DNA of 64,000 nucleotides. Origin: Motilibacter deserti. Its GTDB lineage: Bacteria; Actinomycetota; Actinomycetes; Motilibacterales; Motilibacteraceae. The stretch lies in NCBI RefSeq assembly GCF_011250635.1, contig NZ_JAANNP010000001.1, positions 1,024,933 through 1,088,932 on the forward strand. Direction: 5' to 3'. Made by a program: the position numbers and the translations under genes. Each line of letters opens with the position of its first letter. Position 1 is the first letter of the stretch. Below are positions 46,124 through 51,863 of this stretch, in pieces. The notes under the pieces are model-generated. The model saw nothing but the letters and a program-made list of their open reading frames with translations, searched no databases and was not told where the DNA came from.

Positions 46124-46633
46124 TCAGTCGTCGAAGACGGACCAGCAGATCGCGTTGCGTCTGGCTTGGTCTTCGAGCACCAGCTCCCGGATGCGCTCCG
46201 GGAGCCGCTCGCGCTGCCAGTCGCGCTCCAGCCGTCCGGTGGTGGGACCGGCCGTGGCCGCTGCCCGCGCCGCCTTGATCGCGTAGGCGGCGGCGCCGAG
46301 GTCGTGCTCGGGCACGTGAGGCACGCACGCGGCCTGGCCGGCGGCGTAGGCGGCGCAGCGGGCAGCCCCCCGGAGCGGGCGAGCCGCTCCCATCGCGTGC
46401 CCACCGCGAGCTCGGGCGTCCATCATCTGCACGCTGCCGACGGCCCAGGCGCGTGCTGCCTCGACGGCATCGCGTGGGCGGGTGTCCGAGGGCTGTTCGG
46501 CCTCGAAAAGGTGCAGCACGTGTTCGGCGCAGTCAGCGGCCCACAGGGCGAGGAGCTGATGATCCTCGTCGGTGAGTTCTCCGCCGCGGCGGATCGTGAC
46601 CAGTCGCGGGTCGCGGACCTTCGGGAGGATCAC
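46124..46633 (-). CDS. Putative immunity-type protein, orphan
   Basis: 169 residues from a GTG. The N-terminal stretch VRDPRLVTIRRGGELTDEDHQLLALWAADCAEHVLHLFEA resembles the small actinobacterial putative immunity proteins (Imm-5-like group), helical throughout, with the later RDWQRERLPERIRELVLED. No toxin gene lies beside it, so a cognate toxin, if any, is elsewhere. It sits just outside the AT-richer region. The assignment is from memory of the motif, so moderate. Confidence 0.6.
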   Translation of the reverse strand: MILPKVRDPRLVTIRRGGELTDEDHQLLALWAADCAEHVLHLFEAEQPSDTRPRDAVEAARAWAVGSVQMMDARARGGHAMGAARPLRGAARCAAYAAGQAACVPHVPEHDLGAAAYAIKAARAAATAGPTTGRLERDWQRERLPERIRELVLEDQARRNAICWSVFDD

Positions 46634-46804: not shown

Positions 46805-49360
46805 CTAGCCCGAAGGTGAATCATCCAACCGCCGCATAAGTTGCGCGAGGTTGTGTACCGCCATGAGCTCGCCGTCCTTGTCACGAATGGACACAAAGCC
46901 TTGGCGGGCCGACTCCAGAGCCTCTTGTGCGGCTGGGTAGGCACTCATGAACATCAAGGCAAGGCCCTTGTTCATGTACACACTCGCTTCGCCGCGCTCA
47001 TCGCGGACGTCTTTGTACGCGCTCATCGCGTCGTCGAATATTGCCAGTGACGTCTTCGGGTCGCCCGACTGACTGATGGCCGTAGCAAGCTGTGCTGTCG
47101 TGGACGCCTCTGCCCACCGCGCGCCATTCGCTCTGTGTATCGGTAGCGCCATCGAAAGCGCATGGACCGCATTTCGGTACTGCCCGCTCTCCCGGTATGC
47201 GATGCCGAGGTTGGTCAGCGCGAACCCGGACGCGAATGGCCTGCCCTGCTCTTGATGATAGCGAATAGCCCGGCGAAGGGGTCCGATGCTCGCGGCGACA
47301 TCCCCGCGCCTGCGTAGGGCCTCTGCAAGACCGACGAGCACTGTAGATTCTTCCTCCCATCTGTCCCCGAGCGGGAGTTCGCGAAGGGCTTTGAGAGCAC
47401 GCTGGTGGGTGCGAACAGCTTCGTCGAAGCGTCGAAGCGAGGAAAGAGTCAGGGCGGAATTATTTAGTGTGACCGCAATCTTTAAGTTGTCCGCTAGGCG
47501 CTCGGCCGCTTTCTGTGCCAGGCCGAGCAGCCCTAGCGTGGTTTCGTACTCCCGTCGCAGGGATAGATAAGGTACAAGCGAATTGCCGAGATGCCAAGCG
47601 CCGTCAAAGAGTTCGAGCTCCAAAGCCGCGGCAACGGCGCCGACCAAAGCCACGCGCTCGCCATCCATCCAAACGAGCGCACTAGTTCTGGAGTCGAGCA
47701 GATCTCCGGGCTCCGGCTCACCCATCCCGTTTATCCAAGCGTTGAACTGGTCCACTCGCCGTTGATACTGCATCAACAAGCGATTGAACGCATCCCTCCG
47801 GTCGTGCTCGGACTCGGCAAGCGCTAGCTCTTCTCGAGCGAACAGACGAAGTAGGTCGTGCATCCTCCACAGGTTCCCGTCAACGGACTCGAGCAGATTG
47901 GCTACGCGTAGTTGGCGGAGCAACCTCTTGGCGTCGGTGCTCCCGATATCAGCTAAGTGCTCAAGCGCATTTGACGAGATGTGGCCGCCGGGATGCAGTG
48001 ACAAGAAACGGAACGCGCGTGACACCTCGCTGGTTAGACGTACATAAGAGCTGCGAAACACGCCGCGAACAGCAGCATCCTCATACTGCAGGCCCTCAAG
48101 TCGGGTGGCCTCAGCTTGCAGTTCGTCGGCCAACTCTCCGGGCGATAGATTCGGAAACGCAACGAGGGTCGCCTTGACGACGTTCAGAGCCAGCGGAAGC
48201 CCGGCGCATAAGTGCGCCAGGTGGATCAGGTCCTCTTTGGCATGGTGCTCAGCGTGTCCCATGCCATTCCTACTATTCGCCAGGAGTTGCACTGCCGTAT
48301 CCCCGGGAAGAGGGGAAAGGTTTAGTGTCTCGGCCGAAAGTCGGGGGCCGATCTCGTGCCGTGACGTGACGATGACTCGGTGCATACTTTGATTTGGTAG
48401 GAGTGGCAGTACTTGGCGCGCGTCGAGAACATCATCGAACAACAGTAATACAGGGCGTCGTGCGAGTTCACGCTCATGCAGCAGCGCGTGGTACTGAGCT
48501 GAGTGTACAGAGCTGTCGTCGGCGATCTCCGCGTGGCCAAGCGCTTGCAGCAAAACACCGAAGACTCGATGAGGCCCAACCGAGTCAGTGAGATGCGACT
48601 CGTGGGCACGGAAGTCAACCCGGACCGCGCCACCAGTGAAGTGTTTGACCGCAATCGCCGCTGCTGCGGAGGCTAGAGCCGTTTTGCCGACACCGGGTAG
48701 ACCCGTGACGGCAAGCACTCCAGCTGAGCTATCGTCGGCGAGAAACGACTTGAGAAGTGCTAGCTCGGCAGTGCGTCCAACGAGAGGGTCAGTGAGACGC
48801 GTGGCCGCGTATAGTGGTGTCACGATCGGCAGCCCATGGTCGCCTGCCGTGGCCTCCCGCAAATCGCGAACGAAATCCGCATAGGCCTTGGCCTCTGACG
48901 ACGCGCTTATGTTCAGGAATCGTTCACGCAGTTCGGCCATCTGTGGCGCGTCCAGGATCACGCATATGCGCTCAAGGTGATAGATCTCCGAGCCGCATGG
49001 CACAGTATCGGTAAGACTGTTGCGCTCACTTAGGCTGAGTGCCTGATTAGTTACGAAGGCAATTCCCTGAGCCTGATTCGCTGCGACGCCGTGAAGGTCC
49101 TGTACGAACTTGCGCCTGATCTCGCTGAAAGACCGTTGCTCCGCGGGAAAATATGACGCCATGATCCACTTCTCGTCTCCGCGCCACATGATTGCGTCTT
49201 TCGCGCCGTCAGGGCCTCCGCGAGGGTGACTCGGGTCGAGCCGCACGAACCCCTCCGCGATCATGAGTTGCGCGGAAAGTGCCTCAGCTCGGGCCTGACC
49301 GTCGCTCCATGCCGTGAGTCGCCTGCGCGTCTCGTCCCACTGGGGCCTCACGAACGGCAC
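46805..49360 (-). CDS. STAND ATPase: unassigned (possibly nuclease-like) N-terminal domain, NB-ARC, TPR repeats
   Basis: 851 residues from a GTG at 49360. Residues 1-180 are an unassigned domain: FVRLDPSHPRGGPDGAKD, DEKWIMASYFPAEQ and GIAFVTNQALSLSER, which has the feel of a restriction-endonuclease-like fold (P50-D51 and D62-E63-K64 are PD and DxK candidates). Residues about 195-420 are NB-ARC: Walker A GLPGVGKT (220-227), Walker B PVLLLFDDV (303-311), TSRHE (332-336) and GLPLAL. A winged-helix segment (MHDLLRLFAREELALAES) follows. From about 600 there are TPRs (LGLLGLAQKAAERLADNL, AVRTHQRALKALRELP, YRNAVHALSMALPIHRANG). The layout is that of anti-phage Avs-type or regulatory STAND proteins. 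Codon use is AT-richer than in the flanks, suggesting transfer. The defence role is inference. Confidence 0.88.
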   Translation of the reverse strand: MPFVRPQWDETRRRLTAWSDGQARAEALSAQLMIAEGFVRLDPSHPRGGPDGAKDAIMWRGDEKWIMASYFPAEQRSFSEIRRKFVQDLHGVAANQAQGIAFVTNQALSLSERNSLTDTVPCGSEIYHLERICVILDAPQMAELRERFLNISASSEAKAYADFVRDLREATAGDHGLPIVTPLYAATRLTDPLVGRTAELALLKSFLADDSSAGVLAVTGLPGVGKTALASAAAAIAVKHFTGGAVRVDFRAHESHLTDSVGPHRVFGVLLQALGHAEIADDSSVHSAQYHALLHERELARRPVLLLFDDVLDARQVLPLLPNQSMHRVIVTSRHEIGPRLSAETLNLSPLPGDTAVQLLANSRNGMGHAEHHAKEDLIHLAHLCAGLPLALNVVKATLVAFPNLSPGELADELQAEATRLEGLQYEDAAVRGVFRSSYVRLTSEVSRAFRFLSLHPGGHISSNALEHLADIGSTDAKRLLRQLRVANLLESVDGNLWRMHDLLRLFAREELALAESEHDRRDAFNRLLMQYQRRVDQFNAWINGMGEPEPGDLLDSRTSALVWMDGERVALVGAVAAALELELFDGAWHLGNSLVPYLSLRREYETTLGLLGLAQKAAERLADNLKIAVTLNNSALTLSSLRRFDEAVRTHQRALKALRELPLGDRWEEESTVLVGLAEALRRRGDVAASIGPLRRAIRYHQEQGRPFASGFALTNLGIAYRESGQYRNAVHALSMALPIHRANGARWAEASTTAQLATAISQSGDPKTSLAIFDDAMSAYKDVRDERGEASVYMNKGLALMFMSAYPAAQEALESARQGFVSIRDKDGELMAVHNLAQLMRRLDDSPSG

Positions 49361-50282: not shown

Positions 50283-51152
50283 GTGCTCGCTAACCTGCTG
50301 CCGGGGCTGAGGGATTTCCGAACGCCGCTCGCTGCTGGCTACACCCTCGCTATCACTTTGTGGCTGTTGCTCGAAGAGCGTGTCCCCCGAGAAGAACGCG
50401 CCCCCGGCGCTTTGCGTCGCTTGTACGAGCTGGCAGACATCGCCGGTAGGCCAATACTAGTCGCGTTCTTCTCCTTCTGCTGCTACCTTCTCGGCAGCTT
50501 ACTAGTCGTACGGAAGCCACCAGCATTTACGTTGTTTGGTCTGGCGCGATTTCTGCCTGACGTTCTCTTCGTGCAACGGGGGCGTGCCCACTTCCTGAAC
50601 CGGCTACTCTCGGGGGCAGATAAGGACGAAGCACGCGCGACGGTTGTGGCCAACCGGATGCTGCTTGGTCGGCCACGGCATCTGGCCGCTGGCGCTCTCG
50701 CTTTGGGGGGCGCCGCTAGGGTAGATACAGAAACTGCTGATGTGCTTCGTGCTGCCGCGGCGGGAAGAGCGGACGTGGACTCGGAACGGTTACTGATCGT
50801 CATTCGCGACGTCCTGCTCGCGGCGATCATTGAAGAGCGTGAAATCCTGCAGTCCCGACTTCTTGCGCGAAGCAAAGACCTCTGGAGCGAGTACGATCGC
50901 CACCAGAGTGAGGCTGAGTTGCGACTCACACTCGTTGCGCCACTTGCCTTCCTGGCGCTTGTGCTTGCTGGGATTCTCACTCCCTGGGCACTCTTTGGCT
51001 TGCTGCTGGTGGTTCTCCTCTATCGTCAGGGTGTTGCGCGATATCGTGCAGGGCAGGACGTTGTCCTTGCGTCCCTGCTCGCCGGAGAGATCAGCGCCCC
51101 CGCCATGGACGCCTTCACCCAGGCTGTTGCGCGCGCACAGGACGTGACGTGA
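50283..51152 (+). CDS. Membrane protein of unknown function in the AT-richer island
   Basis: 289 residues from the GTG at 50283. Hydrophobic segments at about 15-32 (AAGYTLAITLWLLLEE), 55-76 (RPILVAFFSFCCYLLGSLLVV) and 215-248 (LRLTLVAPLAFLALVLAGILTPWALFGLLLVVLL) flank a long helical central region (residues 85-210). That region includes LLSGADKDEARATVVANRML and DVLLAAIIEEREILQSRLLARS, which could be a cytoplasmic coiled coil. The tail VLASLLAGEISAPAMDAFTQ is amphipathic. I recognise no family. Base composition matches the STAND gene, not the core genes, and its promoter looks leaderless. A membrane effector or sensor role in a defence island is possible but unproven. Confidence 0.7.
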   Translation: MLANLLPGLRDFRTPLAAGYTLAITLWLLLEERVPREERAPGALRRLYELADIAGRPILVAFFSFCCYLLGSLLVVRKPPAFTLFGLARFLPDVLFVQRGRAHFLNRLLSGADKDEARATVVANRMLLGRPRHLAAGALALGGAARVDTETADVLRAAAAGRADVDSERLLIVIRDVLLAAIIEEREILQSRLLARSKDLWSEYDRHQSEAELRLTLVAPLAFLALVLAGILTPWALFGLLLVVLLYRQGVARYRAGQDVVLASLLAGEISAPAMDAFTQAVARAQDVT

Positions 51153-51350: not shown

Positions 51351-51863
51351 ATGATGACGGACGCAGTGCCAGCAGCAACACTTGAGGCCATCGGGCGCGT
51401 TGCTGTGGAATGTACGATGCTCGAGACGATTGTGTGGATGATTGGTTCGGGTGACCCCTTGAGCTTGTTGAAGCCCGCTCCCGATTATGCGAGCTGGCAC
51501 AAGGTGCGGCGCTTGTACTGCAGGCGTACCGGTGCGTGGCCAGAAAACCTGAAGGCGCGCGGAGATCAGTTGCTTGACGAAGTCGAAGGGCTACGTGAGC
51601 TGCGGAACTCGGTTGTGCATGCCCAGCTGATCACTGTCGGGGGGAATCAGCAGTGGGTCCATGCAAGGTCCCACTCGATCAAGCCTTTCGACCATGAGGC
51701 TGTCGAAAGGTTGCTCGACGATATTGAGATTACCGGCGGGCGCGCACTCGCCCTCTTCGCCACGGCACTAGAAAACGGTGTCTACACTCGCGAGGAACTC
51801 GTTGCGGCCTCTGATGAAGAGCAGCTCGAGATGATGAGGTTGATCGACGAGTTGTCGCAGTAG
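51351..51863 (+). CDS. Small HEPN-like protein with RNSVVH (Rx4H) motif
   Basis: 170 residues from tandem ATGs (51351, 51354) with GGGAG nine bases upstream. The protein is predicted all-helical. EVEGLRELRNSVVHAQL contains R-N-S-V-V-H, the R-x4-H signature that forms the RNase active site of HEPN domains. An upstream helix (IGRVAVECTMLETIVWMIG) supplies the partner helix with an acidic residue. Such proteins act in toxin-antitoxin and abortive-infection systems; others are catalytically dead and only dimerise. No obvious MNT-type nucleotidyltransferase partner is adjacent. AT-richer codon use links it to the STAND gene island. A 15-bp direct repeat brackets it. Confidence 0.7.
   Translation: MMTDAVPAATLEAIGRVAVECTMLETIVWMIGSGDPLSLLKPAPDYASWHKVRRLYCRRTGAWPENLKARGDQLLDEVEGLRELRNSVVHAQLITVGGNQQWVHARSHSIKPFDHEAVERLLDDIEITGGRALALFATALENGVYTREELVAASDEEQLEMMRLIDELSQ

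Follow-up and report, generated by a model that had tools for sequence, protein, structure and literature searches.

An Avs4-like STAND protein of Motilibacter deserti, probably a phage-defence receptor, with a variant Mrr-related nuclease-fold domain

Phage terminase, portal or some other phage protein sets off the anti-phage proteins Avs1 to Avs4, whose nuclease effectors then cut DNA and so kill the cell (PMC12931631). Avs4 (AVAST type 4, PDB 8dgf) is a stand-alone STAND ATPase carrying an N-terminal domain of the PD-(D/E)xK fold and a large C-terminal sensor. Exploring the window, i.e. the whole 64,000-nucleotide stretch of Motilibacter deserti DNA analysed here, we found a protein that is likewise built with a nuclease-fold N-terminal domain (hereafter N-domain) ahead of a STAND ATPase. 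Unlike Avs4, it lacks the motif III lysine, its ATPase is an NB-ARC domain with TPRs, it is 851 rather than ~1540 residues long and its N-domain is only 10% identical to that of Avs4 over the aligned part. A PADLOC scan of the protein, read up to E 1, gave no match to an Avs model. The N-domain resembles the Mrr catalytic domain (PF04471) in its motif I Glu, its motif II (GGxDGGxD in Mrr), the order of its strands and its [FV]VTN strand, whereas the QxK of Mrr is replaced by (A/G)x(Y/G/F) and an invariant Lys and Asp are found on the next helix. In DUF506, DUF790, DUF1626 and COG4636, families whose lysine is proposed to have moved to motif IV or elsewhere, motif III has likewise lost its lysine and the helix behind it carries a conserved basic residue (PMC1913061, PMC1189080), but the window N-domain is additionally without the motif III acid and represents another family with other partners. 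The ATPase and TPRs form the same chassis, at about 30% identity, as in the AfsR/SARP and HaaT-type NB-ARC-TPR proteins of actinomycetes, except that a PD-(D/E)xK-like domain stands where SARP or HTH would. The PADLOC model Aga_REase-TIR, which is Argonaute-associated, was matched by 18 of 66 aligned N-domains (best E 3.6e-7), whereas the window N-domain itself was unmatched and the protein has neither Argonaute nor TIR.

A first-pass annotation of this DNA had proposed a candidate anti-phage sensor with a three-part STAND layout, intact Walker A and B motifs and an N-domain of restriction-endonuclease type, and all three elements were borne out by our analysis (Table 1). The plus strand over the same interval is full of stops, and two full-length relatives, in Actinomadura (L014) and Pseudarthrobacter (L017), align with the protein from end to end at 39-41% identity. 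In addition to the Walker motifs, the protein carries TSR (332), GLPLA (387) and MHD (500); judged by its sequence, the ATPase is thus intact. A STAND/NB-ARC ATPase is marked by Walker A, Walker B, GLPL and MHD in the NB-ARC domain and by repeats behind it, all of which the protein has. The Pfam TPR repeats begin at about residue 628. In the full-length AlphaFold2 model, the N-domain and the ATPase are followed by a helical superhelix that reaches residue 844, and the TPR array consists of helix pairs mostly of pLDDT >90. The model is weak in its ATPase half (pTM 0.50), for which no more than three full-length rows were available, and we drew nothing from it on the packing of the domains.

Table 1. 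Features of the STAND locus, in window coordinates
Feature	Position	Strand	Details
STAND protein ORF	46805..49360	(-)	851 aa; GTG start at 49360; no internal stop (ORF listing)
N-terminal PD-(D/E)xK-like domain (predicted)	48908..49360	(-)	residues 1-151 (core about 10-150); AlphaFold2, Foldseek, VIA-align, hhalign
E26, motif I Glu	49283..49285	(-)	invariant 66/66
GGPDGAKD, motif II	49196..49219	(-)	residues 48-55; D51 and D55 invariant 66/66
A68-S69-Y70, place of motif III (QxK in Mrr)	49151..49159	(-)	no acid, no Lys
K84, motif IV position	49109..49111	(-)	helix after strand 3; invariant 66/66
NB-ARC ATPase domain	48164..48754	(-)	residues 203-399; Pfam PF00931 E 2.4e-14
Walker A GLPGVGKT	48680..48703	(-)	residues 220-227
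Walker B PVLLLFDDV	48428..48454	(-)	residues 303-311
TPR array, presumed sensor	46829..47728	(-)	residues ~545-844; Pfam TPR_12 E 8.5e-22; full-length model
Divergent 289-aa protein, hydrophobic segments	50283..51152	(+)	GC3 0.64
170-aa protein	51351..51863	(+)	GC3 0.70; very weak match to DRT-associated HEPN model, E 0.01
IS110-family transposase, edge of acquired segment	52166..53377	(+)	NCBIfam NF033542 E 1.5e-55

Searching the PDB by sequence, we found AfsR (PDB 8k60) to be the best match of the protein, with E 2e-31 over residues 199-539. This match, together with an NCBIfam match to the AfsR equivalog, speaks for an AfsR/SARP-kind regulator specific to one pathway, whose NB-ARC-TPR part would sense a signal and whose N-domain would bind DNA and control transcription. 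So do the N-termini of many of the closest NB-ARC-TPR relatives in the class, which are SARP (e.g. L152, L156, L160, L164-L166, L168, L170-L174, L178) or XRE-type HTH (L167, L169, L175, L177). Other relatives carry TIR-like or DUF4062-like N-termini (L161, L163, L180); all these names were given by reading the sequences (L152-L180) and not from a profile result. Three further relatives (L157, L158, L179) start with short N-termini of the form VVQAGxVHGDV that resemble amyloid signalling motifs; amyloid-motif NLRs have been described in actinobacteria (PMC7889193). Judged by sequence, the kinship of the ATPase-TPR module, closest to actinobacterial regulators and to many NLR-like proteins, counts against the defence reading. 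Given that this chassis serves regulators and NLR-like receptors alike, it is the N-domain that decides the role, and what we found there runs counter to the regulator: the AfsR equivalog score is 167 against a cut-off of 1430, Pfam and NCBIfam scans of the 851-aa protein detected no SARP, BTAD or HTH domain, and the N-domain has a nuclease fold. A regulator, which the first-pass annotation had kept as the main alternative, thus has many relatives on its side but is weakened by the absence of either DNA-binding domain in the window protein; we rejected it as the main reading on the content of the N-domain and consider it improbable.

Neither Pfam, in which residues 1-151 matched nothing, nor profile searches of PDB sequences, which returned chance matches only, placed the N-domain, and Mrr_cat (PF04471) did not match the 851-aa protein, neither at the Pfam gathering cut-off nor below it. 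The fold was assessed on an alignment of 66 rows, comprising the window protein and loci from the collection scans, and an AlphaFold2 model of residues 1-185 built with it (mean pLDDT 89, pTM 0.82). The model consists of a helix (22-35), strands 39-43, 56-60 and 63-70, a helix (78-94), a strand (99-104), a helix (110-118) and a strand (123-127), a predicted order that is the core of PD-(D/E)xK nucleases. Comparing the model with the PDB by Foldseek placed the N-terminal nuclease domain of Avs4 at the top (E 3.8e-4), the only match under E 0.001. VIA-align gave AspBHI (Z 11.6), Avs4 (Z 11.4 over 134 residues at 2.9 A) and MspJI (11.4), followed by AF1548 (Z 10.4), LlaBIII (9.3) and FokI (8.5); since differences in Z under 1 are ties, these values assign the superfamily and no special kinship with Avs4. 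The best named matches in a structure comparison with a viral library were phage restriction endonucleases. The link to Mrr came from hhalign, in which the 66-row profile matched 16 actinobacterial Mrr domains with 95% and E 4.1e-8, and from single members of the family, 16 of the 66 matching Mrr_cat at E below 0.1 (best E 1.7e-5). Together, the modelled fold and the profiles place the N-domain in the PD-(D/E)xK superfamily, linked to Mrr.

The active-site region is where the N-domain departs from Mrr. Across the 66 rows, E26, P43, P46, G48, G49, D51, D55, F71, K84, D88, F102, T104 and N105 do not change, while the invariant residues of the Mrr rows are D34, G36, D38, Q55 and K57. E26 and GGxDGxxD of the N-domain correspond to motifs I and II of Mrr, so that a motif I Glu and motif II Asp (E26, D51, D55), as expected of a PD-(D/E)xK active site, are present. 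The initial proposal of P50-D51 as active-site residues holds in so far as D51 is invariant, but D55, rather than D51, aligns with the motif II Asp of Mrr. D62-x-K64, also put forward as catalytic, was rejected: position 62 is G in 45/66 rows and position 64 is mixed. Alignment of the Mrr sequence DLIATKDGTRTAVQCKRQ (L130) with DAVATKDGKSWVMGVYFP of the N-domain family (L009) is free of gaps, and by it the Mrr QCK falls on GVY, which is A68-S69-Y70 in the window protein, making this the place of motif III; in the AlphaFold2 model the place is held by the beta hairpin 56-60/63-70. No (D/E/Q)xK was found there in the family: every row has A or G at position 68 and one of Y, G and F at position 70, so that both the acid and the lysine are missing in 66/66 rows. 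K84, in turn, sits with D88 on helix 78-94 following strand 3, as seen in the model and the 66 rows, and is a candidate for a relocated lysine. For DUF506, DUF790 and DUF1626 it has been proposed that the motif III lysine moved to this helix (PMC1913061), and migrated active-site residues are known elsewhere in the PD-(D/E)xK superfamily (PMC1189080).

The family-wide absence of motif III means that the N-domain effector may not be a nuclease. Strict conservation of E26, D51, D55, K84, D88, T104 and N105 across phyla is not expected of a mere or dead spacer, and the modelled site would be an active site that has been rebuilt, or else a conserved site for binding. On the first of these, the N-domain would found a branch of the Mrr/PD-(D/E)xK superfamily that is so far uncatalogued, its site formed by E26, D51/D55 and, from the helix, K84/D88 instead of the whole of motif III; many phyla would use it as an exchangeable effector ahead of STAND, MazF and Fic parts. 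We offer this tentatively, at rather less than even confidence. If the defence reading is right, putative cleavage of DNA by the N-domain, with K84 as the relocated lysine, is about evenly balanced against mere binding. On the second, the N-domain would be an Mrr-like module that has lost catalysis and serves to recognise nucleic acid or a phage protein; as a unit for sensing or targeting it would precede many outputs (STAND, MazF, Fic), the output of the window protein being its oligomer or a partner. We regard this as somewhat unlikely. It would account for the loss of motif III in 66/66 rows, and inactive enzyme domains are frequent in published conflict systems (PMC7159879), but seven polar residues, the motif I and II acids included, remain strictly invariant across phyla.

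The fusion partners of the N-domain bear on both options. The N-domain is N-terminal in all intact copies read, and the part downstream differs. An NB-ARC-TPR part follows it in the window protein, L014 and L017, other STAND ATPases in L015 and, by P-loop and alignment, in L022, PemK/MazF in L037 (7992-9017, E 4e-24) and Fic in L072 (7977-9146) and L075 (7992-9125), these toxin fusions coming from other phyla, while many copies continue into regions without a known family. Fusion to the C-terminal toxins PemK/MazF and Fic and to many C-terminal domains without a known family favours the dead module: PemK/MazF and Fic are effectors already, so that the N-domain looks there more like a sensor or targeting unit. 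Against it stand near-stand-alone copies of 164 aa (L016) and about 200 aa (L019, L021), which suggest a self-sufficient activity. In a tree of the 66 N-domains, all five STAND-fused copies fell in one clade of six rows (support 98/87), in which the attached ATPases are of different kinds; we count this grouping in favour of the defence reading. Two further architectures were observed. In L020, L023, L026, L031, L044 and L093 the N-domain is followed by a long Gly-rich region of the GAPGAGGGGGG type and a further tail, an arrangement that recurs in Proteobacteria and Myxococcota. A deeply split clade (100/100; L076, L078-L086, L088, L090, L091, L096) has a common C-terminal region of ~260 aa and includes many phyla and one viral contig.

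A constant N-terminal position and occurrence in both STAND proteins and toxin effectors also characterize effector-associated domains (EADs; PMC8195603), and the N-domain could by analogy be an EAD-kind adaptor recruiting, by homotypic contact, a second protein with the same domain. EADs come in several copies to a locus or genome (PMC8195603), but the N-domain is single-copy in G000, where no second copy was found at E 1e-5, and in every other positive genome searched; one plasmid only has two N-domain places. Since the domain is single-copy, a homotypic adaptor of this type was rejected, and the strict conservation of the nuclease motif I and II acids would be unexplained by it; we consider it very improbable.

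Relatives of residues 1-151 were detected by tblastn and profile searches on plasmids of Rhodococcus, Gordonia, Mycobacteroides and Azospirillum. A profile search of the genome collection with the N-domain found it on 79 contigs, from Actinomycetota, Bacillota, Bacteroidota, Cyanobacteriota, Pseudomonadota, Acidobacteriota and other phyla, and, besides, on four viral contigs. Its occurrence is sporadic, in 6/394 genomes of the class and 4/396 of the phylum, own genome counted. A scan of the collection with the full-length sequence gave no relatives, tblastn against phage records gave no match, and the viral contigs yielded nothing to a single sequence, the four being found with the N-domain profile. 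Some of these relatives lie beside restriction genes: on plasmid pCP2 of R. qingshengii the N-domain gene is located between a DEAD/DEAH helicase, a DUF262 protein and a type I restriction system, and in G054 a disrupted copy adjoins an Mrr gene. PADLOC matches among the neighbours of other N-domain loci were to RmrA, type IV REase, AbiD, SoFic, bSEFIR, HEC-06 and candidate PDC models; the same pooled neighbours also match resolvases, transposases and ordinary enzymes, and no partner is constant. This tally, for which 136 pooled neighbours were scanned with Pfam and PADLOC models, consists of raw counts with no enrichment claimed, and the defence association of the family, real in some loci and uneven, is supportive rather than statistical. 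The first-pass annotation had named as unfavourable to a defence role a DNA-binding or non-enzymatic fold of the N-domain, or homologues in non-defence contexts only; neither outcome occurred, structure prediction having matched PD-(D/E)xK nucleases, Avs4 included, and some homologues having restriction neighbours.

The STAND gene is 60% GC with GC3 of 0.655, as against 0.84-0.98 in most neighbouring genes, in line with the higher AT content and acquired origin noted at the outset; the low GC3 is common to the two genes upstream (Table 1). In the one other Motilibacter genome compared, both flanks, the left one being the amidase, were found but on different contigs; in this sister species the 45.1-52 kb segment was absent, save for IS110 copies and a distant Imm5-like gene elsewhere. 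The low GC3 and the absence from the sister species support, by sequence comparison, horizontal acquisition of the STAND gene. An AfsR/SARP-kind regulator is also at odds with the sporadic occurrence of the gene, its recent acquisition and its absence from sister genomes. The divergent 289-aa protein is a possible co-acquired neighbour; its only plasmid relatives were on Streptomyces plasmids (best 30%). For the 170-aa protein no relatives were found on plasmids. Downstream of the STAND gene, 171 bp away and in the same orientation, lies a gene for an Imm5-like putative immunity protein (46124-46633 (-), PF21805 E 2.2e-38); it is probably outside the STAND system because two relatives have similar DNA (71-72%) at other places. 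No defence island was found in the 64-kb window around the STAND gene, which, like the lack of an Avs model match, counts against the defence reading.

Given that the effector, ATPase and sensor layout of Avs proteins is matched, with NB-ARC as the ATPase, we take the window protein to be, probably, a stand-alone, Avs4-like and NLR-like STAND receptor for phage defence with a variant nuclease-fold effector. From the anatomy, which is what the data establish, we infer each step of the following scheme. The C-terminal TPR superhelix would bind a trigger, plausibly a phage protein, upon which the NB-ARC domain would exchange nucleotide and the protein would oligomerise. The oligomer would gather several of the Mrr-derived PD-(D/E)xK-fold N-domains, and these, once clustered, would act on a target that is presumably nucleic acid, halting the infected cell. 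On our best reading, then, the layout is of a known, Avs4-like kind, set on an NB-ARC-TPR chassis of actinobacteria and with an uncatalogued but widespread Mrr/PD-(D/E)xK branch that lacks motif III in the position of the effector.

STAND proteins are the bacterial relatives of the NLR receptors of animals and plants, and if this reading is true, an actinobacterial ATPase-TPR chassis of the AfsR type bears a nuclease-fold effector and not a transcription factor. The N-domain occurs in many phyla yet is missing from Pfam, and with its invariant residues one could test clearly whether a PD-(D/E)xK enzyme that has lost the whole of motif III may still cut.
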